A DNA stretch of 48,311 bases, taken from IMG/VR virus record IMGVR_UViG_3300027704_000041, positions 1 through 48,311 of that record. The stretch is one strand, 5' to 3'. A model generated the notes under the pieces. It did not search any database. It was not told the DNA's origin and saw only the letters and a program-made list of their open reading frames with translations. Position 1 is the stretch's first letter; each line of letters starts with the position of its first letter. Below are positions 13,189 through 45,876 of the stretch, one piece after another. Position numbers and translations under genes: made by a program. This DNA comes from a virus.

Positions 13189-16100
13189 ATGCCAGAATTT
13201 ATTCATAATTTTACTCAGGGAAAGATGAATCATGATCTCGACGAGAGAATGGTTCCAAACGGTCAATACAGAGATGCTTTAAATGTTTCTGTGTCTACTT
13301 CTGAATCTAGCAACGTTGGTGCTTTACAAAACATAAAAGGTAACACTGAAATGAAAGGTTCGCCTTCTTCAGAGTCGAATTGGACTGCTGGATACATAGA
13401 TAGTTTAAAAAATCCTGTATGTATAGGTTCTATTAGACATGAGCCAACAGAGTGTATATATTGGTTTATTACATCTGATAGAGATACTAGAAAAGATTCA
13501 ATAAATACTATAGCAGAGTTTAATCAAAAAACAGGTGACGTTACTCCTGTTATTGTTGATACTAAAAATATATTAAAGTTTAGCTCTCAAAAATTAATAA
13601 CTGGTATAAACATAGTAGATGATCTGTTGTTCTTTACAGATGATAATAGTGAACCTAAGAAAATAAACATTGTAAAGTTTAAAAAAGGTTCTTCAAATGG
13701 TGGTAGTCCAAATTTTGTAACTCATACAAAAATACCAGCATATTCCACATCAAGCAAAACATATTCTTTTAACGCCGCTGGGGCAGACTTTACAGAAGCA
13801 GATGTTACTGTTATTAAAAAATCACCTTTATGTAAGCCTGATTTAACTCTAGCTACAAGTAGTAGATCTTATTCTGGAGAAGAAGTTCCAGGTACAGGTG
13901 TTAGTCCTTTAAATACTACTTATGACTTTGTAGGGAATTTCCCAGCAAGTGGTGATACATATACTAACTTTACTTATATATCTGATCAAGCTAGTGGTAC
14001 TGCCGCTGCTGAATACACGCCTCTACCAACTTTTCAGGAATGGGTTGTTGATCAAGCTTTAGGTTCACCTGTGTTTCCAGTTAACATGGCAAGCGTTACA
14101 TTAGCGTTTAATCAAACACCTACTGGTTGGGAGGATGGTGATACAATAGCTTTAACTGGTAGTGCCGTTGGAGATTATAATAACATAGACGAATATACTC
14201 TTAGGTTAAAGATAGTTGCTAATGGTATAAACGGTAACGAAGTAGAATTTCAAATAATGTCTATACCTTCAAAGATACTAAGATTTGGAGTAGCTGAAGA
14301 TGAGCTTGTTTCTTGGGAAGCTCTTTTAGAGGAAAAAGATCCTATGTTTGAATTTGAGTTTCCTAGATTTGCATATAGATGGAAGTATGAGAACGGAGAG
14401 TATTCTTGTTTCTCACCATTTACTTCACCGGCTTTTGAAGGTGACGACTTTGAATATTTATCTAGTGACGGTTATAATTTAGGCATGCAAAACCGTTTAA
14501 GATCTTTAATAATAAGCGGTTTTAATTGGGGTAGTTTAGAGGTTGTTGAGGTTGATGTTTTAATGAAAAAATCTAGATCAAACAATATATACGTTGTTGA
14601 CACTTTAAAAAGATCTGAGTCTGATGTTTTAAATGTTTCTCCACCAAATACATTTAAGTTAAAGACAGAATTAATTGGCGCGGTAGTAGAGTCTAATCAA
14701 TTATTAAGACCTTGGGATAACGTTCCAAGAAAAGCTAAAGCTCAAGAGGTTACAGCTAATAGATTAATATTTGCTAATTATTTACAAAACTTTGACGTAC
14801 CTAAATTAAAATTAGACCTTAGCATAGCTAGCTCAACACACCCTGGCTTCATTGATTCTGATAATGATGGTGATTTAACTGATGAGCAAAACTTTAAAAG
14901 ACCAATACCTTCGCTTAAGAGTATTAGAAAATACCAAGTAGGTATAGTACTTCAAGATGCTTATGGTAGACAAACACCAGTATTCACTAACCCACAAGCT
15001 ACTGTTAATTTAGATAAAGTTAACGCTGTTAAAACTAATAAGTTTGTAATAGAAGCTTTACCAATAGCTAATACTATTGCTAATAACTTCACTCATTACA
15101 AATACTTTATAAAAGATACATCTAACGAGTACTACAACTTAGCATTAGATAGATTTTATTTTGCTGAAGACGGTAACGTTTGGTTAAGCTTTCCTTCATC
15201 TGAAACAAGCAAAGTACAAATAGATAGTTATTTAATACTAAAAAAACAACACGACACAAATAGTCCTTCTATAGGACCTTCAAGATACAAAGTGTTAGAC
15301 GTTCAGTCAAAGGCTCCAGATTTTATATCTAGGTCTAAAAAAATATTTTCAACAGCTAACGCAACAGTTTTAAGTGGATTTAAAGAAGGTTTTTCTACGA
15401 TAAGTTTTAGTTCCGCTGCTGATATTAATGGCGCTTTTGCTAATGGTTTTAACGGTGACACATCTTTAAGGATTTCACAAGGAGCAAACTCAACTGATAT
15501 AATAGGTGTTAAGAGTGGTGGTAGAACTGGAGTTGGTGAGACATATGTAGTTAATTTAGACACACCACTTGGCGCAGAGTCTTTGTGGATGGGTACTACA
15601 GGTTTGGAAGACGGTGAGGAAATAACTATTGACTTGTTTAAAGAAGAAGAAGATAGGTTACCTGAGTTTGAAGGAAGAGTTTTTGTTAAAATAAACAGAG
15701 ATACGGATTTTGAAGTAAACATAGTAAAAACATTTGAACAAGCAAATAAGAGATATGGAATAAAAGCTCACGTGGATATAGTTTCACCTAGACATGTGTG
15801 TGGAAATAGTTTAGGTAGGTCTGAGAGATGGGGTTATTGGCACGGATCAGCTGGTCAAGGTAGATCTGGTTGTTTCTGTGACGCGTGTGAAGACCAAAGA
15901 AGATTTAACGCTCCTTTTAACAACAATGGTAGCAGGTGCAAAGGAACTTCGGGCGGCGGCGGGCCTAGAGCAAACACTGTAGCGGAAGGTAATCCTGACT
16001 GGAAGTTTGCAGATGTCTTTAGAGTAGGTTGCGCTACTAATGAAAAAATGATTGGTATAGCCGTAATTGGTACTGATGATTGGTCTAATTCTCTCGTGCA

Positions 16101-18944
16101 ACCAGGTGATGGTGGTGATAAGGGAACTAGTAGTGGTGATTTTATGAGAACAACAGCTAGCAATGGTGAGTTAATAAGAATTATTCATACTGATGGTAGA
16201 GTTACAAAACCTTACGAGATTGATAAAAACTGGAGAGTTGGATTAGCAAGAGGTTGTAAAAAAGGTTGCTTTGCTGGTGTTAACCCAGGTTGCGACGCAG
16301 ATAAACAGAGTGGTAAAGACGGAAACAAGCATCTAGGACTTGCTTTAAAATTAAAAGAACCAATACAAGAAGACTGGGTTGGCGATCGTACAGCTAGTGG
16401 TATGAGTTCAATAAAAGGATACGAAATAGTAGAAGAAATTGTAACTGATAACAATAGCGTTTTAACATCTACAAATCCAGCTGTTTTTGAAACAGAACCA
16501 AAAGAAGCTGTTGATATAGATATATACTACGAAGCTTCATGTGCTTTTCCAATATCTGATTTAATATCAGGTTCAACTAGCAATAACATTAAAGTTTTAG
16601 ATTATTTCAATTGTTATTCTTTTGGTCAAGGTGTAGAATCTGATCGTATTAGAGATGATTTTAACGCCCCTGTGATAGGTAAAGGTGTTAAAGTTTCTAG
16701 TATATTAGATGAGCCATATAGAGAAGAAAGAAGATCAAATGGTCTTATATTCTCTCAAATATATAATTCAACTTCAGGTGTAAATAGATTGAATCAATTT
16801 ATACACCATATAGAGAAGAAAGAAGATCAAATGGTCTTATATTCTCTCAAATATATAATTCAACTTCAGGTGTAAATAGATTGAATCAATTTATACAGGC
16901 AGAGGCTATAACAAAAGATCTTAACCCAGAGTACGGTTCAATACAAAAACTACACTCTAGAAACACTAATCTAGTTACTTTATGCGAAGACAAATGTCTA
17001 AGTATATTAGCTAATAAAGATGCATTGTTTAATGCTGACGGTAGCGCTAACATAACCTCTAACAAAGCTGTTTTAGGTCAAGCTCAACCTTACGCTGGTG
17101 AGTTTGGTATAAGCACCAACCCAGAGTCATTCGCTGCTTATGGTTTTAGAAGTTATTTTTCAGACAGAAACAGAGGTGCTGTTATTAGATTATCACAAGA
17201 TGGTATAACTAATATAGCTTTAAAAGGTCTTACAGACTTCTTTGCAGATAACTTACCAGTATGTACTAAAATAATTGGTAGTTACAATGATGACAAAGAA
17301 AACTACAATATAACTTTAGACAAGTTAACAGATGAATGGCAAGACAAGTTCTCTAAGACACCGAAAGATAAAACACATTGTGAAGTACCTAATGACGAGT
17401 CTGATGACGTGGAAACAACTACAGTGTCATTTAAAGAGACAGTAGGTGGTTGGCCTAGTAGAAAATCTTATTATTCTAAAACAGGTAATGTTTTTTATCC
17501 ATTAGAAGGTGGTGTGTCTATAAACGACAAGTATTACACTTTTAATAAAGGATTAATATGGGAGCACGCCTCTAATAGCGTTCACAATAATTTTTACGGA
17601 ACTCAATACGATAGCTCTGTTAATGTTATTATAAACGATGCTACTGAATCTGTGAAAGGTTTTAAAACTCTTAACTATTCTGGAAGTGATTCTAGAAGAT
17701 ATACCTACGGGACGAGTGCTGGTTTAACTGGTTTGAGTATAGCAGAGCTTGTTGATCTACGTATAGTACCTTCTACTGTAAACAGCGAAGCTTTTACACC
17801 TGGATGGTATACTAATTATATAAACACTGACATGGAAGAAGGTCAGATAAAAGAGTTTATTAAAAAAGAAAACAAATACTTTAATAAAATAAAAGGTTTA
17901 AATACTTTTTGGAAAGACAATTGCGACAACAACGTTGATTCTAGCGCTTTCCCAACACAAGGTTTAGGCTTTGCAACCATATCAGCTAGCGCACCAAGTG
18001 CTTTTGACTTGACTATTAACATAGATTTAAGTTGTTCCACTACTGGTAATAGCGATATACCAGATACAACTAAGAAGTTCTGGTACTACTGGTCCTGTAA
18101 CAAGCCTGGCTCTAATATAAACATAGACATAAGACAAAAAGCAACAGATCAATTAGTTAAATGTGGTATTGAAGAGTTTTACAACAACTTCTCTAACGGG
18201 TATGCTGAAATAGATAAAAACTATTTTGATTTTAAGTTTTTCAACTCTTCAGGTGTAAATGTTAATACAACTTTGTATAATCAAGATAATGAAATAATGA
18301 ACGTGAGTGGTAAGTTTCTTTATATAGAACCAGCCACTACTCCTGATAATAATGCTTTAAATAAAAATGTTACTGGAACGTCAGTACCTAACACATATCT
18401 TATCATAACTGTTACCAACGGTGTTATAACAGCTAAAACTCAATACAACACGCTAAGCGCTTGCTCATTAACTCCTGACGCTCAGTTTAAAAGTTTTCTT
18501 GGTTATAGATACACTAGTGGTGCAGGGGTTTACTTTATAAACTTAATAACATATGCGGCTAGTATTTCAACACCTTCTCAAAGAGCAGCTGCTACAAAAA
18601 CACAACTTAAAAACTGGTTAACTAGTTCTGCTATAGTAAATGTTCCTAGTCGTGATTTAATGAGACTTAGTAATGAGTTTACTTATTCTGCAGGAGCTGG
18701 TATTGCTGTTGGAGCTACCTTGTACGGAAACGGTGGAGTTGCTTTAACTCCTAACTATAGAAAAGGTATAATGATATACAACACGTTGTCAACATTAAGT
18801 GAATCTGGTTACTATCTATATACTAACCCACCAACAGCGTTGTTAAAAACAGACGCAGGGTGGAGTAGTTTACCTAGCAATTGGAAGTTTATAACATTTG
18901 AAAATAGCGTAATTACTCACATAACAACTATGAACACTCTATAA
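13189..18944 (+). pseudogene. Giant tail protein split by a 92-bp duplication
   Basis: Two open frames, 13189-16875 (1228 residues) and 16881-18944 (687 residues), are one gene interrupted by a perfect 92-bp tandem duplication at 16714-16897. Removing one copy joins them in frame into a 1887-residue protein. The start (FIHNFTQGKMNHDLDERMVP, then NGQYRDALNVSVS and NIKGN) matches the opening of large tail stabilisation/nozzle proteins in crAss-like and other podoviruses. Around the break the text is conserved-looking on both sides (NGLIFSQIYNS then NQFIQAEAITKDLNPEYGS). Residues 871-1034 contain nine cysteines. It probably forms the tail nozzle or stalk. The break may be an assembly artefact or a real recent mutation. 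Confidence 0.75.
16714..16897 (+). repeat. Perfect 92-bp tandem duplication
   Basis: Copy one is 16714-16805 and copy two 16806-16897; all 92 bases match, starting CCATATAGAGAAGAAAG and ending AATCAATTTATACA. Because 92 is not a multiple of 3, the second copy shifts the frame of the tail gene and stops it at 16875. Confidence 0.95.
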
Positions 18945-23153: not shown

Positions 23154-26100
23154 ATGAAAGGCACACCTTTAAAACAAGCCCAACAGTATTCTTACAATGG
23201 TAAAGATTTTTCTATAGAAGAAATACAAGTTGCGGCTGATTCTAGCGGATTAAGTTTCGACGACTACGTTAGCAAGCATAAACTGATTAATGATGATTTT
23301 CAAACAGATCCTGTAAATGTGGAGGCAGTTGCGGGGTCGGAGATACAACCAATAAATACGGCCTCCAAATTGGAAAAATCTTTATCGGATTTCAAATTTA
23401 GACTAACAGGTGATAGAGATAAAAACGAAGTAAAACGCGTCGATCCACAAATTAAGAACGTTGTGCAAGATAGCACAAACCCAAACCAATACATAAAACG
23501 TATACCTAAAAAAATAAAAACTGCCGAAACTTTAGAGAAAGATATATTTGATGACATAGTTAATCCCGAAAATATAGACTTCGGTGTACCCGGATCAGAA
23601 GTTGCCGCTGCTGCTGCTGTTAAATTTGAAAAACTACAAAAACAAGGTGCGGACTTTTTAAGAAGAATATCTGTTAGAAGGATTAAAAATACAAACAAAT
23701 CTAACATCTTAAACGCAGCTTCTTCTGAAGAAAAAGTAACAACTTTATTAGAGGTTCTTAAACCTAGCGTTAATAAAGAAGGTGTTCAAGATTTTAGTAG
23801 TACATCTTTTATTGGTAGAGTCTTAGGATCAGATGAAGAGGAAGGAAAAATAACCTTTGACAAAATATTTAGTGGAACTAATTTAGAGTTTGAAGAAGTA
23901 AACCAAGGCCAGTTTCAAGGTGATAATTACGCAGTACTTAATGCAGCGTCTGGAGGAACAACAGGTGGTTTTGAATTTATAAAAGTTAAAATACCTGGCT
24001 CGGAAGGGCATGTTGTATTAGAGCTTAATACTGATAGTCTTTTTACAGGTCAACAGACATCGGCTTTAAATAAAGCTAATTACAAGTTGCTACAAGACTA
24101 CATGACTAAAAATGCTAGTCTAATAAAAACAGATAGAGACTTTTTTCAAAACAAAGAAAGTTTAAGAGATGAGGCAAGAGCTATTACTGAAATAGCTACA
24201 GAGAATAATCCAATTTTTATTGAAGAAAAACAAGAAATAAAGTCAAGATTTAATGTACTTAATCTTGATAAATCTACAGCGGTAAATAATACTGAGTTTT
24301 ACAAAATAAATCAACTATTTGATGGTAAATACTCAACCGACAGAATGCCATATTCTGATGAAACTGGTAGTTCTCATGAAAGAGGTGTATTAGCAGATAA
24401 GTTTGATGCTGTTTCTAAAGAGCTAAGTGCGCTTAGCGATGATCGTATAGATACTCTTAAAGAAAAATACAAAGCTAAAACCATTGACGATCTTGCTAAG
24501 ATGATGGTTTTGAATCAAGAAGCCCAAACTGAGACCTTAGGTTTAATTAATAAGTTTTCTCAACTATATATAGAAGATAATTTTCAAAGCAGGGATACAG
24601 CTGCCGCGTTAAACGTTGGTACAAGGATGCTAGATTTAGATCTAAATAAAGAGCTAGAAAGTATAACAAGTACGCAGAGTACTATATTAGATAAGTCTAA
24701 AGAAAATAAAAACATTCAACAAATAATACAAGACGTCATTGATCAAAAAGGCGGAATGACCCAGTTGCAGGAGGAACAATTAACTATAGCTTTAAATAAC
24801 AATGGTATTGTTATAGACCCTTACGATAACGAAACTTATTCAGAAACTACAATTGATGAAAACGGTGTTGAGACTACAACGGTGTTTAATAAAGCGATTC
24901 TTAGTAATTTAAAAACACTATATGATCAAGCCTACATGGATAACGCTTCTTATTATAGTATATTTAACACATTAAACGACAAAGCTCAAAACATAGCTGA
25001 TAAAAAAAATGAATTAAACGTGTCTATGGACGCGGCTTCTAGAAACTATGATTTAAGTGAAAAATATATATCTAACATTGCTTTAGGTACTCTTGACATT
25101 GGTGCTGGTATCGCAAACTTAGGTTTTAATGTTTTTACAGGTGGTGTTTACATGGACGAAGAAAGTCCGTTTCAAGACCTTTATAAAACTACAAATAGAG
25201 TTAGAGGTAGTTATGTTAGAGACGTAGACTTTAGTAGTGGAGCAGGTGGAGCTTTCAATTCAATAGGAAATTTTGGTAAATTTTTAATGCAAGAAGGTTC
25301 AAATCAACTTCCTATATTAGCAGCTATGGTTGCTAGTGGTGGTTATGCTGCTCTTGTAGTAGGCGCTTCCTCTACTGGTCAAAAGCAGATGGATATGACT
25401 TACCAGCTTGTAAATGGTTTAAAAGATCATTCACATACTTCAATGTGGTTAACAAGTTTAGGTTATGGTCTTGCTGAAGGTGGATTTGCGCATTTAACAA
25501 CTGTACCTATTTTAGCAAGAGCAAAAAGAAACTTCTTAAAATCTGGCAAGCTAAAAGGTATGCAGGCTTTAAATACCTCGTCAAAAAACTGGGCTAAAGA
25601 AAATGCTAGAGGAACAGTTACAGATATACTTTTAGAACCTTTAGGTGAAATAGCAACTGTTGGTGTTCAAAACATGTTAGATGGAGTTGATGTCACTAGA
25701 GGTATGGACCATGCTGGTTTCTCTGGTTTTGGTTTTGGATTATTGTTTAGTGGTTTACCTTTTCTTAGAGGAGCTTATAATTCTAAATTTTCTTCATATG
25801 AAAGCATGAGTGAAATGCGAGGTTTGCAAAACAGCATCAATGAGATGGGTAGCAAATTAGACAGGATGAACTATGGTATGGGAGATATTAATCCTAATTT
25901 TTTCAAGACAAAGAAACAGTTAATGGATAACATGGCTAAAAAACAAGCCAAGCTTAATAAGTTAATTGAATCTAACACTACACTAATACAAAACACTTTA
26001 GGTGAAGAAGCGATTGGTGCTACTATATTCGTAAGGAACAAGCAGTTTGGGATTCAGAATAAGATTAAGGATATTAAAAATAATCCAGATATAGATGCGG

Positions 26101-29100
26101 CTACTAAGCAAAAATTAATATCTGATTTAGTTGCAGATTTTGACATAATAGAAAGTCGACTGCAGGATATGTTGTCTGATACAAATAAGAAAAAACTTAG
26201 AACTGCTTTTGTAGGTTTAGAGGTTACTAACAAAGAAAAATATGATAACTTCATTTCAGAAGCAGACGCTAATTTAATAGCTAAAGATCCTGACAAAAAA
26301 CACACGCCAGAGGACGTAAAGAAAGAAGCATATAATCTTTATATGAAAGACAAGTTTGAAGCTACTGATGCTCAAGCCGCTGCTGAAGGTATTAATATAT
26401 CTCAATTTAATACAGTAGACGAAGCTGTTACAGGCGTGCAAGCATTGGTTGATAACGGAACTTTAGATGAGCAAGTTGGTGCTGATTTTATAGATGGTAT
26501 AAAAAACAATAATGCAGATGGCGCGGCATACGTTGATGCTAATGGTGTTAAGACTACTATTTCCGTAATGGAGAATAGAATTAAAAACGAACAACAATTT
26601 ACAAAAACACATGAAATAGGTCACCAAGTATTTTGGGAGCTGTTTACTGGTAAAGGTGCTGATAGAATAGGTTTTGGTAATGTATCTAATCAACTTCTTA
26701 CTTCAATGGAGATGATTGATAATAAAACTTACCAAAGCTTTATAAAAGACCAACGTATATACGACGGAGATGGTAACGTTGATCCTAAAGAAGTTATATC
26801 TGTTTTTCTTGAGTATATTGCCCAAGGTAAATTTGGTGAGAAAAAAGCAAAAGGTTTATCTGGTTTATTTGGTGTTCTTACTCAGCAGAAGTTTAAAGAA
26901 AAATATAAGTTTGATTTCAAAGGAGAAACTGATTCTTATAATTTTGTTGTTAATTTAGCTAAAAAAATACAAGACGGAACTTTAACAAAAGAAGATATAG
27001 CTGATGCTAAAGAGTCTAGCGTGGTGACAGATGCTCAGACTAATGACATAAAAGATTTTATAAATCAAACAAAAGAAGCTCCATCTGACGTAGCTAATAG
27101 TGCTGGTACTAATTTAGAAGGTTTATTAAATGACTTTGTTGTAGGGAAAATGAACATCGATAGGTCTAAGAAAGGACTACCTGTTTTACCTGAAGGATTT
27201 ATTCCAAAGCCTGAAAAGAAAAGAGAAAAAATAAGATCTTTTGTTAACGGCATGTTAAGCACAGATGTTAACGGCAATCAAGTAACGGATTTTATGAAAT
27301 CAAGATTAGTTGCTGAATCTGACGCTATGGGTCCTTATGTAACAACTATTTCTAATAAAATTTGGAACGGTTTAGATCCAATGAACAGAGAAGGTCAAAC
27401 TATAGATACTTGGAAGCAACTTGTAGCTACAGAGTTATCTACAATGATACAGCAAGAGTATTTAAAACCAAATAAAGAAGGTGTTACTAAGTTTCAAGAT
27501 TTAGATAAGTTCGTAAGAAACAGAGGTTACTTTAGAGTGTTTGAGTTAGCGAAAGCTACTTTTAAGCAAACTGCAGCTACTTTAGGTTTAGAGAATGTTG
27601 GAGACGTTGCTGACACAGAGGTTGATTTAGATGCTGAGCAAGCTGATCTTGATGCTGCTAAAAAACTAAGAGATAGTAAGGTTGATTTTGTTAACAAAGT
27701 TAAATTTATAGACAGCAGTAATAAAGCTGTTAATCTACCAAATAGTGTAGTAGATGCGATAACTAATAATATTGTAAAAACATTTAAAACTAAAAAGTTT
27801 AAGAATGAGTTAGGTACTAACAAGTTTAGAACAGAGCTAGCTAAAGAGTATGGCGGAAGCATAGGAACTATGTTTAAAAATGTAATGCAACGTGGTGAAA
27901 ACTTTAACAACGATGTAGAGCTAACAAATGCAGATAAAAAAGGTAACTATTCTCAGTTTTTATCACAAAACTTTAACTTAATATACGATCTACCTATAGA
28001 TGTATTGAATAAAAAATATCCTTTCTTAACTGAAAGCACAGGTGTTAGAATGAATGCTGAGCAAATCAGAGGTCATAATGATGCTATAGACAAAGGCTTG
28101 AGTGTTGGTAAAAAAATAACTGATATAAAGTCTGGGCCTTTTATATTTGAAAAAGTAAAAGACAAGATAAAAGCTAAAATAGATTATTTAAATTACTTTG
28201 AAGGAACAGGTGTTAAGCCTAACACTAAAGGAGCTAGACAGTTATCTTTAGCTGATACGATGGGTCAAGAATCTGCTTATGATATTCAAGGAGATGCTCT
28301 TAGAGAAGCTGGTTTTAAAACAGAGGCTTTTATACAAGAGTTAAATAAAAACGTAGGTAGAGTAGCTTTTAGTTCTGTTAGAGGTCTAGATTTTGGTAAA
28401 CAATCTCAGTTTTATGCATCACTACCAGGTGTTGCTAGTATGTTAGACCCAAGCTCAACAAACTGGGCTGATCCTAAAAAAGTAGAAACAACGTTCAGAG
28501 AAATATTAAAAGATCAGTTACCTAATTTTACTAATTCAGAGGTAAACGCTATAGCAAAAGAACTAGCCGCTTACGCTAAGAAATTTAATCTTGTTGATCC
28601 TATAGTTAAAGATGGAGCTAAAGATTCTGGAATTCTTCTAGATTATATAAGTGACATGTTTTCTGAGAACCAGGTAAACCAAGCTCTAAGATCGTTTTTA
28701 AACTTAAACGAAGCTATTGCTCAAGGATTTGAGAATGACGTTAGAATACAAAGACATCGAGCTATACCTTTAGATTACATAAGACAGTTTGATAATGATC
28801 CAGTAAGACAAAGACAGGCTATTATTGACGTCATACAAAATAAACCTATGTATGCTGGTGCTGGTAAAATTGGCGATGGTAGATATCAAGTGTTTGAAAA
28901 TACAAATGATTTTTACAAGCACTTAAACACTTTGCCTGGTATTGAAATTGATATACCTAACTCAAGAAAATCTACACAATCTTGGCTTAAGATAAACGGT
29001 AAAGAAGTAGCGCAAAGTGAAATTACTTTAATAGCAGAGACAAGTGCTGGCGGATTAAAAGATAAAAACTTTACTGGAAGATTAGAACAAGCTAAAAACG

Positions 29101-32100
29101 CTAGACGATATGTTAAAGGCATGATGGAATTAGTTGTTGATGGTGAATATGACAATATGGATTTAGCTATGTTAGTTAAACAAATGGATTCTCAAATGAC
29201 AGCTCCATTAAAAAGAGCAGCTAACTTAGAATACATTGTACCAGGATTAAATCCTAAAAACGCTAGGTACGAGCACATGATACCTACTAATTTTGTTTTA
29301 ATGAACTTAGTTGATTACTACAAGAATGACAGAGCTAATGCTGATACAAAAGCAGACGAGTTATTTGAAGAGTATAAAGTGGCTATTATACCTAAAAAAA
29401 TGGATGATTTTCTAACCAAGGTTGGTTTACAATCAAAAATGAACTTAGGTTATAAGATAGGTGATCCTGCTTTTAAAAGATATTACAACATAAGAACTTG
29501 GGGTAACAAAAACTTTGTTGCTATAACAAGTATAAACCCAGACGCTACAACTAAAATTATTGGTGAGTCTTGGGAAATTGCAGGTAAAGCAGTCAACAAA
29601 CAAAACTTGTTCCAAGAGTTACAACAATACAGAGCTGAGACTAAAGCTGTTGAATTAGGCTCTAAAGTAGCTTTTTCAGCCAAAGGTATAAGTGTTTGGG
29701 ATTTTGATGATACATTGGCTCAAACTAAATCTAACGTGCTTTATACGCTTCCAGATGGAACGAAAGGAAAAATAGACGCTACAGAGTTTGCGTTACAATC
29801 TGCTGAACTAGAGTCTAAAGGTGCTAAGTTTGACTTTAGTGAATTTACTAAAGTTATGAAAGGTAAAAAGGGCCCTATGTTTGAGAAGGCTGTTGCTCGT
29901 AATAAAAAATTTGGAAATGAAAATGTTTTCATACTTACCGCTAGACCTCAAGGTGCTGCAAATGCTATACATACTTTTCTAAAAGGTATTGATCTTGATA
30001 TACGTCTAGAAAATATAGTTGGATTAGCTGATGGTACAGCTAAAGCAAAAGCTGACTGGATGATAACTAAAATAGCTGACGGTTACAATGATTTCTACTT
30101 TGCTGACGATGCTATTAAAAATGTTAAAGCAGTAAAACAAATATACGATAATTTTGATATAAAAGGTAGAGTTCAACTAGCTAAAGTTGCTTTTAGCAAA
30201 GGTCTAAGTGAAGATTTTAACAGCATGATGGAGCGTCAAAAAGGAGTAGATCCTAATAAAACGTTTTCCGAAGTAGTAGCTAGAAGAAGAGGTAAGAAGA
30301 AAGGTGGTTTTAAATTCTTTATTCCGCCTTCAGCAGAAGATTTTAGAGGTTTAACTCAATATACTTTTGCTGGTAAAGGAAAACAAGGTGATGCAGATCA
30401 AACTTTCTTTGAAGACGCTTTAATGGCACCTTATTTTAAAGGTATAGCTGCTATTGAATCGTCTAGACAATCTATCAAAAATGATACTTCAGGTTTATTA
30501 AAGATGTATAAGCCAGTGGTTAAAAAATTAAACAAATTAATTCCAGGAGGAGACTTCACGTATGACGCTGCTATAAGAGTATATCTTTGGACAGAGGCTG
30601 GTATTGAAATACCTGGTATATCTAAAAGAGATCAAAAAAAATTACATGACTTAGTTAAGAATGATTCAGATTTATCTGGCTACGCTGCTGGATTACTTAC
30701 CGTGTCAAAAGTAGATGTATGGCCAGAGCCTAGTAAGTACTGGGATACACAAACAACCTTAAGTGATTTACAAAACCTAACTGACAAAGTAAATAGAAAG
30801 CAATACTTATCTGAGTTTATTGAAAACGTAGATACTATATTTAGTGAAAAGAATTTATTTAAAATAGAGGCGCTTTACGGTAAGGCTACTAGAAGTGCTA
30901 TAGAAGATTCTATTTACGCTATGAAAACAGGTAGTAACAGAACAACAGGTTCTAATAGCATTAACAACTCTTGGTTGAACTGGATAAACAACTCTGTAGG
31001 TACTATAATGTTCTTCAATAGAAGATCAGCATTACTACAGTTAATATCTTCAACAAACTTTATAAACTGGAGTGATAACAATGTTTTACAAGCTGGTTTA
31101 GCTTTTGCTAACCAACCACAATATTGGAAAGATTTCGTAATGATATTTAATTCTGACAAGTTAAAACAAAGACGTGGTGGTTTAAAATCAGATGTTCAAT
31201 CAGCTGAGATAGCTAATGCAGCTAAGAATACAAAAGACAAAGCTAACGCAGCTATATCTTATTTGCTTAAAATAGGTTTTACACCTACACAAATAGCGGA
31301 TAGTTTTGCTATAGCTTCAGGTGGAGCTTCTTTTTATAGAAATAGAGTTAAAACCTATACAAAAAAAGGCATGTCTAAAGCTGATGCTGAAGCTGCTGCT
31401 TTTCAAGATTTCAGTAAAGTATCAGATGAAGCTCAACAATCTGGTGATCCTGCTTTAGTTTCACAACAACAAAGAAGTACGGCGGGTAGATTAATACTGG
31501 CTTTCCAGAATACGCCGATGCAGTATACTAGGTTGATGAAGAAAGCTGGCCAAGATATAATAAATGGTAGAGGAGATTTTAAAACAAATTTTAGTAAAAT
31601 AATATACTACGGAGCTGTGCAGAATTTAATATTCAATGCGTTACAGCAAGCGTTGTTTGCTTTAATACCTGGGTTTGACGATGACGATACTGATGAAAGT
31701 CTAGAAATTAGTCAATCTAGAAAACAAGCAAATATATTAAACGGAATGATGGATTCTATCATTAGAGGTAGTGGTATATATGGCGCTATCGCAACCACTC
31801 TTAAAAATACTATAAGAAAATTTTATCAACAAGAGAAAAAAGGATTTACAGCTGATCATACTTACACTATAATAGAAGCTGCAAACATATCACCTCCTGT
31901 AGGTTCTAAGTTAAGAAAAATATATAGTGCTATTCAAACTTATAGGTTTAACAAAGACGTTATAGCTAAACACCCTTGGGATTTAACCATAGAAGGTAGA
32001 TACAATCCATCTCCTAATTACGAAATAATGGGAAGTCTTGCTTCTGCTTTAGTAAACATACCTCTTGATAGGGTCATGATAGAATCACGAGGCATAGCTG

Positions 32101-32450
32101 AGGCTTTAGATGCTAGGAATTCATCTATGCAAAGAATAGCTCTAGCTTTAGGTTGGAGATCTTGGGGTGTAGGTGCTGAAAACGAGGAGTTTGATGAGAT
32201 TAAAGAAGAAGCTAAAGCTGTTAGGAAAGCAGAAGGTATAGAAAAAGGTAAACAAACTAGAAAGGATAATAAACTAAAAGAATTACTTGAGTACAATGCT
32301 AAAACGCCTGAAGAAAGAGCGGCTATAGATGCTGAAAAGAAAAGAAAAAGATCTGAGTCAGCGAGAAAAGGAGCTGCTACTAGGAAAGAAAATAAAAGAA
32401 TAAAAGATTCTATATTAACCAGTGATTTAATAAAACTACTACAACAATGA
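23154..32450 (+). CDS. Giant polyvalent (probably ejected) protein with zincin and HAD motifs
   Basis: 3098 residues, nearly a fifth of the window. The start contains GTPLKQAQQYSY. Hydrophobic Gly-rich segments lie around residues 640-860 (for instance LGTLDIGAGIANLGF and LPILAAMVASGGYAALVVG). A zinc-peptidase motif HEIGH at 1153-1157 has possible third ligands at E1213 or E1220. A HAD-type phosphatase domain shows DFDDTL at 2183-2188, ILTARP with T2262, and DD at 2318-2319. The C-terminal ~600 residues are helical with hydrophobic stretches and end in a very basic tail (SARKGAATRKENKR). Giant multi-domain proteins after the gp14-like genes are typically packaged in the head and injected with the DNA. 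No RNA polymerase signature was found. The frame is uninterrupted. Confidence 0.8.
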   Translation: MKGTPLKQAQQYSYNGKDFSIEEIQVAADSSGLSFDDYVSKHKLINDDFQTDPVNVEAVAGSEIQPINTASKLEKSLSDFKFRLTGDRDKNEVKRVDPQIKNVVQDSTNPNQYIKRIPKKIKTAETLEKDIFDDIVNPENIDFGVPGSEVAAAAAVKFEKLQKQGADFLRRISVRRIKNTNKSNILNAASSEEKVTTLLEVLKPSVNKEGVQDFSSTSFIGRVLGSDEEEGKITFDKIFSGTNLEFEEVNQGQFQGDNYAVLNAASGGTTGGFEFIKVKIPGSEGHVVLELNTDSLFTGQQTSALNKANYKLLQDYMTKNASLIKTDRDFFQNKESLRDEARAITEIATENNPIFIEEKQEIKSRFNVLNLDKSTAVNNTEFYKINQLFDGKYSTDRMPYSDETGSSHERGVLADKFDAVSKELSALSDDRIDTLKEKYKAKTIDDLAKMMVLNQEAQTETLGLINKFSQLYIEDNFQSRDTAAALNVGTRMLDLDLNKELESITSTQSTILDKSKENKNIQQIIQDVIDQKGGMTQLQEEQLTIALNNNGIVIDPYDNETYSETTIDENGVETTTVFNKAILSNLKTLYDQAYMDNASYYSIFNTLNDKAQNIADKKNELNVSMDAASRNYDLSEKYISNIALGTLDIGAGIANLGFNVFTGGVYMDEESPFQDLYKTTNRVRGSYVRDVDFSSGAGGAFNSIGNFGKFLMQEGSNQLPILAAMVASGGYAALVVGASSTGQKQMDMTYQLVNGLKDHSHTSMWLTSLGYGLAEGGFAHLTTVPILARAKRNFLKSGKLKGMQALNTSSKNWAKENARGTVTDILLEPLGEIATVGVQNMLDGVDVTRGMDHAGFSGFGFGLLFSGLPFLRGAYNSKFSSYESMSEMRGLQNSINEMGSKLDRMNYGMGDINPNFFKTKKQLMDNMAKKQAKLNKLIESNTTLIQNTLGEEAIGATIFVRNKQFGIQNKIKDIKNNPDIDAATKQKLISDLVADFDIIESRLQDMLSDTNKKKLRTAFVGLEVTNKEKYDNFISEADANLIAKDPDKKHTPEDVKKEAYNLYMKDKFEATDAQAAAEGINISQFNTVDEAVTGVQALVDNGTLDEQVGADFIDGIKNNNADGAAYVDANGVKTTISVMENRIKNEQQFTKTHEIGHQVFWELFTGKGADRIGFGNVSNQLLTSMEMIDNKTYQSFIKDQRIYDGDGNVDPKEVISVFLEYIAQGKFGEKKAKGLSGLFGVLTQQKFKEKYKFDFKGETDSYNFVVNLAKKIQDGTLTKEDIADAKESSVVTDAQTNDIKDFINQTKEAPSDVANSAGTNLEGLLNDFVVGKMNIDRSKKGLPVLPEGFIPKPEKKREKIRSFVNGMLSTDVNGNQVTDFMKSRLVAESDAMGPYVTTISNKIWNGLDPMNREGQTIDTWKQLVATELSTMIQQEYLKPNKEGVTKFQDLDKFVRNRGYFRVFELAKATFKQTAATLGLENVGDVADTEVDLDAEQADLDAAKKLRDSKVDFVNKVKFIDSSNKAVNLPNSVVDAITNNIVKTFKTKKFKNELGTNKFRTELAKEYGGSIGTMFKNVMQRGENFNNDVELTNADKKGNYSQFLSQNFNLIYDLPIDVLNKKYPFLTESTGVRMNAEQIRGHNDAIDKGLSVGKKITDIKSGPFIFEKVKDKIKAKIDYLNYFEGTGVKPNTKGARQLSLADTMGQESAYDIQGDALREAGFKTEAFIQELNKNVGRVAFSSVRGLDFGKQSQFYASLPGVASMLDPSSTNWADPKKVETTFREILKDQLPNFTNSEVNAIAKELAAYAKKFNLVDPIVKDGAKDSGILLDYISDMFSENQVNQALRSFLNLNEAIAQGFENDVRIQRHRAIPLDYIRQFDNDPVRQRQAIIDVIQNKPMYAGAGKIGDGRYQVFENTNDFYKHLNTLPGIEIDIPNSRKSTQSWLKINGKEVAQSEITLIAETSAGGLKDKNFTGRLEQAKNARRYVKGMMELVVDGEYDNMDLAMLVKQMDSQMTAPLKRAANLEYIVPGLNPKNARYEHMIPTNFVLMNLVDYYKNDRANADTKADELFEEYKVAIIPKKMDDFLTKVGLQSKMNLGYKIGDPAFKRYYNIRTWGNKNFVAITSINPDATTKIIGESWEIAGKAVNKQNLFQELQQYRAETKAVELGSKVAFSAKGISVWDFDDTLAQTKSNVLYTLPDGTKGKIDATEFALQSAELESKGAKFDFSEFTKVMKGKKGPMFEKAVARNKKFGNENVFILTARPQGAANAIHTFLKGIDLDIRLENIVGLADGTAKAKADWMITKIADGYNDFYFADDAIKNVKAVKQIYDNFDIKGRVQLAKVAFSKGLSEDFNSMMERQKGVDPNKTFSEVVARRRGKKKGGFKFFIPPSAEDFRGLTQYTFAGKGKQGDADQTFFEDALMAPYFKGIAAIESSRQSIKNDTSGLLKMYKPVVKKLNKLIPGGDFTYDAAIRVYLWTEAGIEIPGISKRDQKKLHDLVKNDSDLSGYAAGLLTVSKVDVWPEPSKYWDTQTTLSDLQNLTDKVNRKQYLSEFIENVDTIFSEKNLFKIEALYGKATRSAIEDSIYAMKTGSNRTTGSNSINNSWLNWINNSVGTIMFFNRRSALLQLISSTNFINWSDNNVLQAGLAFANQPQYWKDFVMIFNSDKLKQRRGGLKSDVQSAEIANAAKNTKDKANAAISYLLKIGFTPTQIADSFAIASGGASFYRNRVKTYTKKGMSKADAEAAAFQDFSKVSDEAQQSGDPALVSQQQRSTAGRLILAFQNTPMQYTRLMKKAGQDIINGRGDFKTNFSKIIYYGAVQNLIFNALQQALFALIPGFDDDDTDESLEISQSRKQANILNGMMDSIIRGSGIYGAIATTLKNTIRKFYQQEKKGFTADHTYTIIEAANISPPVGSKLRKIYSAIQTYRFNKDVIAKHPWDLTIEGRYNPSPNYEIMGSLASALVNIPLDRVMIESRGIAEALDARNSSMQRIALALGWRSWGVGAENEEFDEIKEEAKAVRKAEGIEKGKQTRKDNKLKELLEYNAKTPEERAAIDAEKKRKRSESARKGAATRKENKRIKDSILTSDLIKLLQQ

Positions 32451-35682: not shown

Positions 35683-35701
35683 AACTAACTAACTAACTAA
35701 C
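35682..35701. repeat. (TAAC)n repeat, stops in all frames
   Basis: Five tandem copies of TAAC (TAACTAACTAACTAACTAAC). The 4-base period places TAA in all three plus-strand frames and TTAG-derived TAG in all three minus-strand frames. It includes the nrdA stop codon at 35697-35699. Confidence 0.8.
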
Positions 35702-37415
35702 CATCACACGCAACGCAATCTTCGTTCATCGCTTGCTGTGCAATATCTCCACGTAAGACAGATTCTGTCCTCGTATAATATAAGGTTTTAACACCTTTTT
35801 TCCAAGCATCAAAGTGAACCTTGTTAAGCCATTTAGGCGTAGCTTCACTAGGAAATGCTAAGTTTAAACTCACTGACTGATCTACATATTGCTGTCTCAG
35901 TCCAGCTTGATTGACTAATTCTAGTTGATTAATCTCCTTAAAAGTTTTAAATACCTCCTTTGCGGTGACGTCGTGCGCCATAACAACATCATCAAGCTCA
36001 GTAATGTTTTGTACGCTACCACCGTCGGCCAGTATCTTGTCCCATGTCTCATTATTATTTATTTTAAGTTTTCTTAATAGTTTAACTAATGTAGGGTTTT
36101 TTCTTATAAAAGTACCTCTAGCAGATTGCTCTGTAAAAACGTTTGCTGCCCAAGGTTCTATTCCCGGAGATACGTTACCAGATAACTTAGAATTAGAAAC
36201 GGTGGGAGCAATAGCACGCAAATGAGTATTACGCATACCAGTACCAACACACCAAAGAGGTTCACCATAAATCTCTGCAAGGTCCATTGAAGCTCGCTCA
36301 CTTTCAATTTTAATTTGCGAAAAAATCTTCCTAGTTTCAAACTGAGATAGTAGACCTTCGAAAGCAATACCTTTCTCTTGGAGATACGTGTGCCATCCAA
36401 GTACTCCCAAGCCCAATGCTCTCCCTTTCTGCGCAGATCGTATAGAGTTTTCGAACCCGCGTAATCCTTTGGCTCTTTGAATAAATTCTTCCATAACGCC
36501 GTCAAGAAAGAATATGGCGTCATATATAAGGTTAGTGTCTTTCCATTCTTCATATTTAGCTAAATTTAATGATGACAAACAACATACGAAACTATGATTT
36601 TCATCTGTATGTAATGTTATTTCAGAACATATGTTAGTCATATGAACTTTTAATCCGTTTTGCTTATAAGCTTTAGGATTCTTTTTGTTAACGTTTCCTT
36701 TAAAGAGTATATAAGGTTCTCCAGTTGCTTTTCTTTTTCTAAGCAATTTACTCCACTTGTTTCTAGCTCCTGTATCTCCTTGCTCAAGCTTTCGCATGAA
36801 CTTATCCCCAACAATAGCGCACTGGTGAAGGTTAAGTGACTGTCTGTTAACATCTCCTTTAGGTTCTCGTATTTCCAACCAGTCTTCGAAGTCTTCGTGT
36901 TCGATATTAATGTTAACACTTGCAGCTCCTCTTCGAACTGATCCTTGATTAGTGGCAAGTATTGTTGAGTCATATATTTTACAAAAAGGGACAACTCCGT
37001 CTGATGTTCCATTACCTGTTATTCTAGCGCCAGCGGGTCTAATTTGATTTATACCGATACCTACTCCACCGCCGTGCTTAGCGAGTAACATCATCTCTAA
37101 ATTCTTTTGCCCTATGTCTTGGATAGAGTCTGCAACATCAATGCCAAAGCAACTGATAGGGAGGCCACGGTCAGTACCAGTATTACTAAGTACAGGACTT
37201 GCGAGGCATAACCACCCGTTCCAAATATACTGGAAGAAAGTTTCTGCCATTTCTGGCTTATATAATCGTCTAGCAACTGTCCTCGATACTCTTTCATAAG
37301 CTTCCTTTGGTGTCTCTCCTTCCAATAAATATCCTCCAGATATCGTTTTCTTGTAGACATCTGTGTCTCCCCATCTTGGGTAATCTTCTCCTTTAATCCA
37401 CTCATTATTCCACAT
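35697..37415 (-). CDS. nrdA: Ribonucleotide reductase large subunit, class Ia
   Basis: 572 residues against about 760 for E. coli NrdA; the N-terminal ATP-cone is absent, the protein beginning at MWNNEWIKGEDYPRWGDTDV. Catalytic features: C89 in ISCFG, N261/C263/E265 in TNICSEI, the second redox cysteine in CCLSSLNL (C278/C279), the radical-transfer tyrosines in LYYTRTES, and a C-terminal CVAC pair for electron delivery. It reduces ribonucleoside diphosphates to supply dNTPs, with NrdB as partner. Lack of the ATP-cone predicts loss of dATP feedback inhibition, common in phage versions. It overlaps the upstream gene by 11 bases and ends at the all-frame stop repeat and terminator. Confidence 0.93.
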   Translation of the reverse strand: MWNNEWIKGEDYPRWGDTDVYKKTISGGYLLEGETPKEAYERVSRTVARRLYKPEMAETFFQYIWNGWLCLASPVLSNTGTDRGLPISCFGIDVADSIQDIGQKNLEMMLLAKHGGGVGIGINQIRPAGARITGNGTSDGVVPFCKIYDSTILATNQGSVRRGAASVNINIEHEDFEDWLEIREPKGDVNRQSLNLHQCAIVGDKFMRKLEQGDTGARNKWSKLLRKRKATGEPYILFKGNVNKKNPKAYKQNGLKVHMTNICSEITLHTDENHSFVCCLSSLNLAKYEEWKDTNLIYDAIFFLDGVMEEFIQRAKGLRGFENSIRSAQKGRALGLGVLGWHTYLQEKGIAFEGLLSQFETRKIFSQIKIESERASMDLAEIYGEPLWCVGTGMRNTHLRAIAPTVSNSKLSGNVSPGIEPWAANVFTEQSARGTFIRKNPTLVKLLRKLKINNNETWDKILADGGSVQNITELDDVVMAHDVTAKEVFKTFKEINQLELVNQAGLRQQYVDQSVSLNLAFPSEATPKWLNKVHFDAWKKGVKTLYYTRTESVLRGDIAQQAMNEDCVACDG

Positions 37416-37902
37416 ATTTTTTATTTATTAGTAAGGGTTCTTTTTTATATTCTCTATTCTTAGCATTAAACTTAAGTTGCATATGATACAACCCGTCTTT
37501 CTTCCATTTACCATTCCAAGGTTTAAAGTTTGATGATAACCTGTCATATGATTTAGCAAACTTCCATATTCTACTTCCGTCACCCTTTATCTTGTCTAGT
37601 GACTTAACCCAGAACATATCTAAAGGACCTAGCTCTCTACAAATATCTAACAAAGCTACTAATTCTTTTGTTCTCTTACCGGTGACACATATGTCTATAT
37701 CAGTTGTTTTCCAACCGTTAAGTATTCCACCAACTAAATATAGATCATAATGCAACCAATCAAGCTTTAATATTTCTTCTACGTATCTTTTATATATTGG
37801 ATCATCTATTCCTTGCATGTATGGTATAAAAACACCGTGAGGTCCTTTTACTCTACCATCTGTTTCATGGTTGTAATCATCTTCATTCCAAAAGGTTTTC
37901 AT
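37405..37902 (-). CDS. Nucleotidyltransferase-like protein
   Basis: 165 residues from the ATG at 37902, whose ATGA overlaps the stop of the upstream gene; a longer 185-residue frame exists but this overlap decides the start. The motif LVGGILNGWKTTDIDICV supplies GG (58-59) and two acids (D68, D70) with spacing like the Pol-beta superfamily minimal nucleotidyltransferases (GG/GS then DxD), followed by a helical part. Such proteins transfer a nucleotide to a protein, RNA or small molecule, or are antitoxin/toxin relatives. Placed between a membrane protein and nrdA. The substrate cannot be told. Confidence 0.6.
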   Translation of the reverse strand: MKTFWNEDDYNHETDGRVKGPHGVFIPYMQGIDDPIYKRYVEEILKLDWLHYDLYLVGGILNGWKTTDIDICVTGKRTKELVALLDICRELGPLDMFWVKSLDKIKGDGSRIWKFAKSYDRLSSNFKPWNGKWKKDGLYHMQLKFNAKNREYKKEPLLINKKYVE

Positions 37903-38165
37903 AAAAATAAATGTTTGGTCCAAGCAAATAAACCGTTTATATTTAAAACAACTAAGTTCCATTGCTTTCTAGCTGACGTTTGAATAACAACACAACAGAA
38001 ACCTATGATAAATAACATAGGTTCCAGTGTCCATTGTCCAGCTATAAGAAAGCCTGCTCCGAAGTAACCAATTCTAGTTGATAACCTCTCACTCCAAGTC
38101 AAGCGTCTTTGCCTGACTAGATTCCTTGCTAGCTTCAGCTTTAAGCTTTTCCAACGCTTCATCAT
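37899..38165 (-). CDS. Small membrane protein with two helices
   Basis: Up to 88 residues. From about residue 30 two hydrophobic stretches are visible (RIGYFGAGFLIAGQWTL and PMLFIIGFCCVVIQTSA), followed by ARKQWNLVVLNINGLFAWTK. The N-terminal 25 residues overlap the upstream coiled-coil gene; a TTG start at about 38102, where that gene ends, may be the real one. Its stop overlaps the next start as ATGA. Probably an inner-membrane protein; function unknown. Confidence 0.55.
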   Translation of the reverse strand: MMKRWKSLKLKLARNLVRQRRLTWSERLSTRIGYFGAGFLIAGQWTLEPMLFIIGFCCVVIQTSARKQWNLVVLNINGLFAWTKHLFL

Positions 38166-40760: not shown

Positions 40761-41555
40761 TTATTTATCTTTTACAAATGTTCCATTAATCATTTTACCT
40801 GTTCTAGTTGCTATAACTTTATAAGCTTCATCAATACAATATTCAATATCATATCCCTGCATGTGAGCTAAGTTAGTTAATACTACAACCATATCACCTA
40901 TTGCATCCACAATTTCAGGCTTATCATCTTGCAGCAAAGCTTTAGCTAGTTCACCAGCTTCTTCTTGTAGCTTAACATATTGCGTATGTGGATTACCTTC
41001 ATCATATAAGCCTCTTCTAGCTGCCCAGTCTCTAATAAGATCAAATCTTTCATTTGTCTCTGGCACTGTTTGGTTAGCCATCATTAATAACATGTCAACT
41101 TGAGGTGTATGTGCTGGGTTAAAATAAGCTTCATAAAAAGCTTTATTATATATGTAAGATCTATCAGCGTTAAACATAGATATCTTAGCATTCTTCATTA
41201 TCCATTTTATGTTCTCATTTGTTATTTCAAACTGGCCGAACTCTGTTTTCCAATTTAAACCTATGTTATCCATTAATCTACCTTTTAGTTTATTTAAAGG
41301 CACTGGGAATGTTGAGGTTTGTTCTGTTGCGTTTATTTTCATTTTTTTAAATAAGTTTTTATATTTTTTAATATCTACCTTATAGCCATAAGACTTTTGA
41401 AGTTCTATTTCACGGTCTGATATATACTCTATATCGTCTGACTGTTCAAGAACTTCATACTCATTCTCCTTATAGCCTTGCATAAGGGTAACCCTGTTAT
41501 TAAGATTACGTGTAACTCCTATTTTTTTACCTGGTATGTGGTATAAATAATACAT
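40761..41555 (-). CDS. GIY-YIG-like / MazG fusion protein
   Basis: 264 residues with two parts. Residues 1-65 resemble a GIY-YIG domain: YYLYHI, KIGVTRNLNNR with R21, and a later acid in REIELQ (E49/E51). A linker of about 110 residues follows, then residues 171-264 show a MazG domain with E198/E199/E202 (QEEAGE) and E214/D217/D221 (EIVDAIGD), the metal-binding signature of all-alpha NTP pyrophosphatases. MazG-type enzymes remove a nucleotide from the pool, including dCTP or dUTP in phages. Whether the GIY-YIG part still cuts DNA is unclear. It is next to the thymidylate-synthase-family gene, which suggests a shared nucleotide pathway. Confidence 0.65.
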   Translation of the reverse strand: MYYLYHIPGKKIGVTRNLNNRVTLMQGYKENEYEVLEQSDDIEYISDREIELQKSYGYKVDIKKYKNLFKKMKINATEQTSTFPVPLNKLKGRLMDNIGLNWKTEFGQFEITNENIKWIMKNAKISMFNADRSYIYNKAFYEAYFNPAHTPQVDMLLMMANQTVPETNERFDLIRDWAARRGLYDEGNPHTQYVKLQEEAGELAKALLQDDKPEIVDAIGDMVVVLTNLAHMQGYDIEYCIDEAYKVIATRTGKMINGTFVKDK

Positions 41556-41558
41556 ATT

Positions 41559-42203
41559 TTAAAGTTTATTGTTATACAAGTGCATATTATGAGCGTGATG
41601 ATAGTAAGTACCTGTTTCAATACTTAGTCTCTTAGCAATCATTCGCTGCAACATTGAGAATTGATACTGATCATTACAGAAGCCGTACCAGATGTCATTA
41701 GAACGCATATAGACAGACATATTAAGTTTGTCGTTTAGTATTGTAAACTGAACTGCGTATGTACATGGTGTATCTTTTCTATAAGTTTCCCACTCTTTAC
41801 CGTCATATATACTTAAAGCTGCGTGTCTAGTGTTTTTGTTCTGTCTTAGCTTAGCGACAACAAGATCTATTTGATTATTTCTTTGCCATTGCCAACCGTA
41901 ATTAGATCTTACTTCTCTGTTTGAATCAGCCATCTTTTCCCATATCGGTGGTATCTTACCGTATATCTCACCTAGCTTGTCTATACTAGGATCACCTGAT
42001 AAATACCATTCCCATTCAGCTTCAGCGTACTTTAAGCTCCATTTACGCTCTTTGTTTACTATATGGTTATCTTGTGGATTCATAATATAAAACCCACAAT
42101 TAAACAAAGCTTTAGTGTCATCAAAATCATCACCGTAACAGATGATCTGATCTAATAAAAACTCGTATGCTTCGTTTGCATTTTCAAATCTTGTGTTTAT
42201 CAT
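41559..42203 (-). CDS. Thymidylate synthase family, probable dCMP hydroxymethylase/methylase
   Basis: 214 residues. Family hallmarks: YGWQW near 102-106, catalytic Cys147 in TPCTYAVQF, the RSND segment at 167-170, and an HNMHLY end. At the position of the dUMP-binding Asn of E. coli ThyA (N177), an ungapped alignment from RSND puts Asp178 (GFCND). In this family Asn-to-Asp marks dCMP-using enzymes such as T4 dCMP hydroxymethylase (gp42). The enzyme would therefore modify dCMP at C5 with methylene-tetrahydrofolate. Its neighbour is a MazG fusion, matching the role of T4 dCTPase (gp56). Being one residue beside N177, the Asp call depends on the alignment. Confidence 0.6.
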   Translation of the reverse strand: MINTRFENANEAYEFLLDQIICYGDDFDDTKALFNCGFYIMNPQDNHIVNKERKWSLKYAEAEWEWYLSGDPSIDKLGEIYGKIPPIWEKMADSNREVRSNYGWQWQRNNQIDLVVAKLRQNKNTRHAALSIYDGKEWETYRKDTPCTYAVQFTILNDKLNMSVYMRSNDIWYGFCNDQYQFSMLQRMIAKRLSIETGTYYHHAHNMHLYNNKL

Positions 42204-42426
42204 AATAATATTTATAGTAACTGTGAATTTTCTCCCATATTTCAGTCTTCTTAAAGACTTGAGGGGATCTGTTTAATTTATTGTTAATGACTATGTCGAC
42301 ATTCCATTCAAAAGTACTGTGTGCCCAAGCTGATATTTTAATGCCGTTTGCTATACACCATTGCATATGCTTGAAGTTCTCTGTCGTGGGCATATGTTCA
42401 CCCATATTTATACCTTTCTTAGCCAT
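42184..42426 (-). CDS. Small hypothetical protein
   Basis: 80 residues, starting MAKKGINMGEHMPTTENFKH. Mixed helical and Trp/Tyr-rich (HMQWCIANGIKISAWAHSTF, then WEKIHSYYKYYYDKHKI). Its 3' end overlaps the thymidylate-synthase-family gene by 20 bases, and it starts directly after the primase-helicase stop, so it is an operon member. No family recognised. Confidence 0.55.
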   Translation of the reverse strand: MAKKGINMGEHMPTTENFKHMQWCIANGIKISAWAHSTFEWNVDIVINNKLNRSPQVFKKTEIWEKIHSYYKYYYDKHKI

Positions 42427-44154: not shown

Positions 44155-44202
44155 TTAGTTTGATTTATTATATTATCATATAGTATTCGTATTTAGTTTG
44201 TA

Positions 44203-44511: not shown

Positions 44512-44513
44512 TT

Positions 44514-45245: not shown

Positions 45246-45246
45246 A

Positions 45247-45804: not shown

Positions 45805-45876
45805 ATGGTTATTTATTTGGTCTATATATATAATTACACATAAACGTTATTAATTAAATTTTATTTTTCGCTTAAC

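Follow-up and report, generated by a model that had tools for sequence, protein, structure and literature searches.

The 48,311-base IMG/VR virus record analysed here over its whole length (the window) encodes a 3098-residue polyvalent protein that unites a zincin-like domain and a HAD phosphatase domain in one chain, as originally predicted. The HAD is a module of a swappable slot; in related giants this slot can hold a P-loop kinase instead, or a kinase nested within the HAD. Family matches and a structural model predict Pnkp as the nearest known relative of the HAD, and our preferred reading is an enzyme, delivered in the virion, for healing nucleic-acid ends rather than a phosphatase of nucleotides or signals. 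Features of the protein are listed in Table 1.

Table 1. Coordinates of the giant gene, its parts and the two genes before it
Feature	Window coordinates	Strand	Basis or detail
Two genes directly upstream of the giant gene, 219 and 364 aa	21374..23138	+	Order as phi18:3 gp120, gp121
Giant polyvalent protein P0001, 3098 aa	23154..32450	+	ORF; closes structural gene module
Sole strongly hydrophobic segment, aa 719-737	25308..25364	+	Kyte-Doolittle 1.82
Zincin-like domain, ~aa 1090-1305	26421..27068	+	HExxH 26610-26624; E1213 26790-26792
HAD phosphatase module (predicted), ~aa 2174-2345	29673..30188	+	Motifs, PHROG 415, VIA
HAD catalytic sites (predicted)	D2183/D2185 29700-29708; TAR 29937-29945; K2299 30048-30050; DD 30105-30110	+	Conservation
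Insert site past HAD motif I, ~aa 2200-2207	29751..29774	+	Kinase, ART-like or ~55-aa inserts in relatives; empty in window
All-helical C-terminal module, ~aa 2346-3020	30189..32213	+	Conservation; model pLDDT 83

The giant gene and its surroundings

The ORF is uninterrupted, and its reading frame has a stop codon upstream, at 23136. It is the final gene of a structural module that opens with TerL and portal genes (PHROG 6681, 6547) and also encodes a protein resembling the Crassvirus muzzle (Pfam E 1.8e-9); giant genes hold the same module-final position in Elemovirus and in Cellulophaga phage phi18:3. TerL is 61% identical to that of MW202828, an uncultured spring podovirus, 45% to those of Flavobacterium Elemovirus phages and, among the matches listed, 31-38% to those of Cellulophaga and Tenacibaculum phages. 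Because these relatives are phages of Flavobacterium, Cellulophaga and Tenacibaculum, the host is likely a member of the Bacteroidota.

Elsewhere in the window, the adjoining ORFs 13189-16875 and 16881-18944 match separate parts of PHROG 14478 (1474 positions), the former additionally matching the Crassvirus muzzle protein; the PHROG 14478 gene may be split into two ORFs here relative to its relatives. On the minus strand at 35697-37962, the match to the ribonucleotide reductase large subunit begins at position 204 of the 975 in the profile. The 185-aa ORF upstream of it has no PHROG match, and the front part of the reductase looks missing or divergent. Early genes, also on the minus strand (40761-46629), encode a MazG-like pyrophosphatase, a thymidylate synthase, a primase-helicase, an exonuclease, an Erf-like annealing protein and a phage-borne sigma factor. 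No tRNA genes were found in the 48,311-base window.

Two general properties that had been ascribed to the giant protein were confirmed in part. The membrane-like segments reduce to a single strongly hydrophobic one, four segments exceeding 1.2 with the Kyte-Doolittle values, and the very basic tail is moderately so (final 50 residues net +7, whole protein net -3). The remark that no RNA polymerase motif could be seen was borne out: the giant protein has no Pfam or PHROG match to an RNA polymerase, and no D[FYW]DGD[EQ]-type motif was found in six frames, which rules out a virion RNA polymerase of the N4 or crAss type. A PHROG scan of 20 other ORFs likewise found no RNA polymerase. PF18823, the first family guess, was uninformative.

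Collection of relatives

Searched against IMG/VR, the HAD piece brought in 64 related loci (51-84% identity), the C-terminal piece 284 and the alignment query at least 575; from each of the last two sets 80 loci were kept. The resulting 162 distinct giant relatives are a mix of loci fetched via the HAD, via the kinase and via the C-terminus. Aligning the window's protein with HAD-fetched relatives (50 full-length sequences in all) shows strong conservation over positions 2165-3000 and poor conservation over 1-2160, save near HExxH and E1213.

A genome scan gave 17 loci, every one of them on a MAG contig; over half are labelled Bacteroidota. Searching 50,697 phage records by tblastn with the two halves of the giant protein and with the HAD returned no match; we thus found no cultured phage with this giant family, although TerL relatives exist (MW202828, Elemovirus). 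The giants of MW202828 and Elemovirus, in a profile search, gave no HAD, kinase or C-terminal module.

Shuffle control. In shuffled versions of the protein any HExxH arose in 4 of 1000 and DxDxT[LIV] in 176 of 1000. HAD motif I alone therefore means little, and conservation among relatives, rather than motif occurrence, decides whether the two domains are there by other than chance. That conservation, together with the control, rules out chance matches.

Zincin-like domain

The HEIGH motif lies at residues 1153-1157, the position claimed for it, and 156 of the 162 distinct relatives have an HExxH ahead of the C-terminal module. The residues of a zincin-like metallopeptidase are present, with H1153, E1154 and H1157 on one helix and E1213, the candidate third ligand, on a later one. 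Across the 99 rows of an alignment, E1213 has a conservation of at least 90%; as those rows were chosen by HExxH, it alone counts there as independent evidence.

A model of the domain (pLDDT 79) has strands, the HExxH helix and the later Glu-bearing helix (model helices 103-117 and 164-176). This fits the polyvalent metallopeptidase of PMC5512222, whose available text describes an HExxH helix plus a Glu-bearing helix and gives ART and Zeta-type kinase domains as known partners. The best VIA match is weak, to the Pro-Pro endopeptidase PPEP-2 (Z 5.2); collagenases, lugdulysin and MATCAP follow at Z 3.3-3.9, intermixed with globins. Foldseek of the model against the PDB gave nothing significant, and Pfam returned scattered weak peptidase matches (M78 in 9 of the 99 rows). 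The same zincin-like domain is carried by Elemovirus gp18 (E 1.9e-13). Taken together, a zincin fold in the giant protein is very probable.

HAD phosphatase module

The HAD signature had been read correctly: DFDDTL occupies 2183-2188, T2262 lies in TARP and the DD pair is at 2318-2319. Placed in the HAD scheme of motifs I-IV, TAR 2262-2264, K2299 and D2318-D2319 are invariant in all 125 HAD copies, the window's included. Motif I, DxDxT (D2183, D2185 and T2187 in the window), is likewise kept in 125 of 125, a pattern script having found it in 122 of the 124 relatives and the remaining two, L194 (DFDQT) and L202 (DFDET), having been read by eye. Variant forms of motif I (DFDQT, DFDET) with both aspartates kept occur in L194, L202, L217, L221, L228, L230 and L234. 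Over 129 close pairs, median dN/dS is 0.10 for the HAD and 0.09 for the C-terminal piece.

A model of residues 2155-3070 (pLDDT 83), used for structure comparison, shows a Rossmann-type HAD fold that matches many HADs at Z 9.4-14.0. The five closest solved structures by VIA are all Pnkp phosphatases (5uj0, 1rc8, 4xru, 1ltq and 2ia5; Z 14.0, 13.3, 13.2, 13.1 and 12.6; 2.2-2.4 A), entries of T4 Pnkp and of Capnocytophaga Pnkp1, the match at 14.0 being the T4 Pnkp 3'-phosphatase. Other HADs reach at most 11.4, at least 1.2 Z below the lowest Pnkp row. The window HAD also matches PHROG 415, 'polynucleotide kinase' (E 5e-6), as does the phosphatase half of T4 PseT (E 3e-24). Three further searches count against this link: Foldseek of the HAD/C-terminal model against the PDB had no significant match, the HAD profile matched nothing among PDB sequences, and hhalign of that profile against T4 PseT alone aligned only motif I (probability 12.5%). 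We found no match to a kinase in the window's own giant protein, which is therefore Pnkp-phosphatase-like rather than a Pnkp.

From its model and its invariant motifs, the module is predicted with near certainty to be an active phosphatase, so this part of the original prediction holds. The nucleotide or signalling substrate proposed with it fares less well, the closest relatives being polynucleotide 3'-phosphatases instead; we give even weight to the view that the substrate would be a polynucleotide end. In the rival account the HAD would dephosphorylate nucleotides or linearised second messengers of host immune signalling, and the kinase that can replace it would modify nucleotides of that sort. 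Many HADs are phosphatases of small molecules, and RNA ligases are mostly absent from the related contigs (below). Polyvalent proteins are also thought to act on nucleotide signals, according to the text available on them. With the nearest folds and families all on the polynucleotide side, we consider this account unlikely.

A swappable slot

Ahead of the helical C-terminus, the 162 distinct relatives have a HAD in 124 cases, a kinase without HAD in 9 and neither in 29, proportions that differ from natural frequencies because the relatives were fetched by three different domains. Within the C-terminus-fetched set alone (2 of the 80 loci were left out as too short), 53 of the 78 proteins with enough upstream sequence have a HAD and 25 have none, 8 of the latter with a kinase. 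Of the 124 HADs, 100 run without a break; inserts of ~55 aa occur in 10 and ART-like ones in 4, and in the other 10 a P-loop kinase sits directly after HAD motif I. Slot classes were corrected by reading the sequences for the nested kinases of L060, L205 and L236 and for 8 unplaced HADs.

Both motif sets are intact in the nested kinase-HADs of L106/L108/L149, L142, L060, L153-L156, L160, L205 and L236. L158 has a nested-type kinase with no surrounding HAD, as if the phosphatase had been lost and the insert retained. Several hundred extra residues lie between the HAD and the C-terminal module in L037, L040, L043, L060, L205 and L236, with a recurring NPWC[VI]...W..Y...WDRMD; the stretch in L037 has no Pfam match.

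The exchange is visible, with clean borders, between sisters. L176 has a HAD and L182 has none, both flanks being closely alike, and the pairs L024/L058 and L018/L057 differ by an insert within the HAD. On a C-terminus tree made by a quick method after removal of near-copies (139 rows), the five slot states need at least 19 changes; taken by itself, the kinase-in-HAD state requires 5, each of them forced by starred branches.

ART-like insert. The insert nested in L057 scores E 0.032 against ART-PolyVal, and the insert of L058 gave nothing usable in Pfam. The pattern FHGG/YYHGTS in the nested insert is one that we take to be ART-like. 'ART-like' is a weak label, based on this pattern and with a score below the Pfam cut-off.

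Slot kinase. The P-loop and a DGTG motif are kept in all 19 kinases examined. Pfam places the nested kinase P0002 nearer AAA_33 (E 7e-16) than Zeta_toxin (E 1e-10), and two other kinases score near-equally on both families. PHROG 505 is matched (E 6e-11) over the portion that holds the T4 Pnkp kinase half, and one nested copy matches the NCBIfam bacterial Pnkp (E 1.7e-4). Against the PDB, the kinase profile ranks 4gp7-type structures first (E 3e-5), then Zeta toxin (2.5e-4), T4 Pnk (0.0037) and Pnkp1 (0.01). The entries 4gp6, 4gp7, 4jst and 4mde are labelled 'Metallophosphoesterase'; we read them as the Pnkp kinase domain from Clostridium thermocellum. The slot kinase is of Pnkp or Zeta type; its pairing with a Pnkp-type phosphatase inclines us to Pnkp.

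If the kinase were of Zeta type, the slot might be cell-wall-directed or toxin-like, with a UDP-N-acetylglucosamine kinase weakening the wall at entry and the HAD acting on sugar phosphates or reversing the damage. Three kinases do score above the Zeta_toxin Pfam cut-off (E 1e-10 to 5e-14), one UniProt relative is named UDP-N-acetylglucosamine kinase, and both polyvalent proteins and MuF fusions are known to include Zeta-like kinases (PMC5512222, available text). We nevertheless hold this account to be quite improbable: the Pnkp kinase outranks Zeta, though closely, in the PDB profile search, the nested kinase fits AAA_33 better, and the HAD is Pnkp-like.

C-terminal helical module

The C-terminal module is the most conserved part of the family, with many invariant positions over 81 rows. 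Compared with predicted viral structures, its model finds four members of the same family first (31-45% identity) and then many viral giants, mostly at 10-15% identity, with E down to 7e-13. Some of these giants are annotated 'large polyvalent protein-associated domain', 'ART-PolyVal' or MuF, and by these fold matches the module looks like a scaffold shared among polyvalent giants.

The HAD directly precedes this module, as might suit a role in virion assembly or self-regulation (dephosphorylating virion proteins, for example, rather than acting on the host), but a HAD that 38 of the 162 relatives lack, whose slot changes state at least 19 times on the tree, that a kinase can replace and that can take up an ART-like domain is dispensable, which makes such a role very improbable.

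Probable virion location and proposed function

The two genes directly upstream of the giant gene show weak similarity to gp120 and gp121 of phi18:3 (blastp E 2.7e-4 and 0.003). These two proteins and gp123 are annotated from MS/MS proteomics, gp123 as structural, and gp123, which follows the same two genes, is the positional counterpart of the giant. No homology to the zincin, the HAD or the C-terminus could be detected in it, so that the argument for virion location is one of position. Elemovirus gp18, in the same place and with the shared zincin-like domain, is annotated 'structural protein'. By this synteny the giant is probably virion-borne and ejected.

We propose that a short-tailed Bacteroidota phage would carry the giant in its head as a polyvalent virion protein and eject it along with its genome. 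The zincin-like domain probably cleaves the long chain, freeing its modules in the cell. The HAD, a phosphatase of the Pnkp kind, would take 3'-phosphates off broken RNA (or DNA) ends, which may arise from host self-attack nucleases, and such healing would precede any phage protein synthesis. Relatives with a Pnkp/Zeta-type kinase could treat the 5' end as well.

There are precedents for phage end repair. Against the anticodon nuclease PrrC, T4 deploys Pnkp together with an RNA ligase (PMC3400036, available text), and jumbo phages encode HAD phosphatases for RNA repair, as the available text of PMC7824862 has it. The RNA ligase family PF09414 was found in 5 of 50 related contigs. PF09511 was found in none of the 50, but its control likewise gave no match, which makes this zero uninformative. 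The scarcity of PF09414 counts against full RNA repair, since repair of the T4 type needs a ligase; sealing would have to come from a host ligase, or the ends would be healed but left unsealed. The absence of ligase is used in the available text of PMC5512222 (Iyer et al.) as an argument against repair for polyvalent 2H domains. Among the ligase contigs, three (G023, G027 and G028; L080, L090 and L096) belong to a clade without HAD and kinase, and those of L110 and L132 have both HAD and RNA ligase (PF09414).

Weighing these points, we regard the whole reading, virion delivery, release by the zincin and Pnkp-type 3'-end healing by the HAD module, as finely balanced. More tentative is its extension, in which marine Bacteroidota phages would carry Pnkp-type end healing in their virions as a domain-swapping cassette, pre-empting host nucleases that cleave RNA upon infection, some with a 5'-kinase in the cap position of the 3'-phosphatase, so that a single nested enzyme with two active heads would stand in place of the tandem one of T4.

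Comparison with known systems

Polyvalent proteins. Like those of Iyer et al. 2017 (PMC5512222, available text), the window's protein is a giant multidomain phage protein with a zincin-like metallopeptidase hub, and its C-terminal fold is common to viral giants annotated as polyvalent. A word search of the main text of that paper found no HAD phosphatase named, and the slot of HAD, kinase or nested kinase-in-HAD is not described in the text available.

N4 virion RNA polymerase. This ejected protein of ~3500 aa likewise carries a zincin-type HExxH subdomain, after which comes a large region of helices at the C-terminus (PMC12633501, available text). The window's giant differs in having no RNA polymerase, and in the HAD/kinase slot between the zincin and the helical end.

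PNK-HAD and 'Swiss-army-knife' HADs of jumbo phages. These phage HADs, too, are thought to clear 3'-phosphates for RNA repair. They differ in being standalone or fused to an N-terminal kinase, in being generally congruent with RNA ligases and in not being modules of giant virion proteins (PMC7824862, available text).

T4 Pnkp (PseT). The window HAD is closest to its 3'-phosphatase domain, PHROG 415 being common to both, and relatives of the window pair the HAD with a kinase of PHROG 505, as T4 does. In T4, Pnkp is small and free-standing and has its kinase before the phosphatase, whereas the window HAD is a module of a giant protein; moreover, its relatives place the kinase inside the HAD, and the ligase is usually missing.

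Capnocytophaga Pnkp1. Capnocytophaga is a flavobacterium. Its Pnkp1 has a T4-like phosphatase fold and is the third-best HAD match (4xru, Z 13.2), but it works in a cellular three-protein complex with ligase and methyltransferase.

In the open-access literature we found no polyvalent protein with a haloacid dehalogenase, no fusion of a polyvalent protein with a polynucleotide kinase (within the text available) and no kinase inserted within a HAD phosphatase. Polyvalent proteins are known, yet the function of most of their cargo is not. The slot names testable chemistry (3'-phosphate removal, 5'-phosphorylation), and its phosphatase, kinase, nested and ART-like states, with sister pairs that differ only there, form a natural comparison set. 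If end-healing enzymes are indeed carried in the particles, these phages would counter RNA-cleaving host defence before their first gene is read, whereas T4 first has to make Pnkp and ligase.
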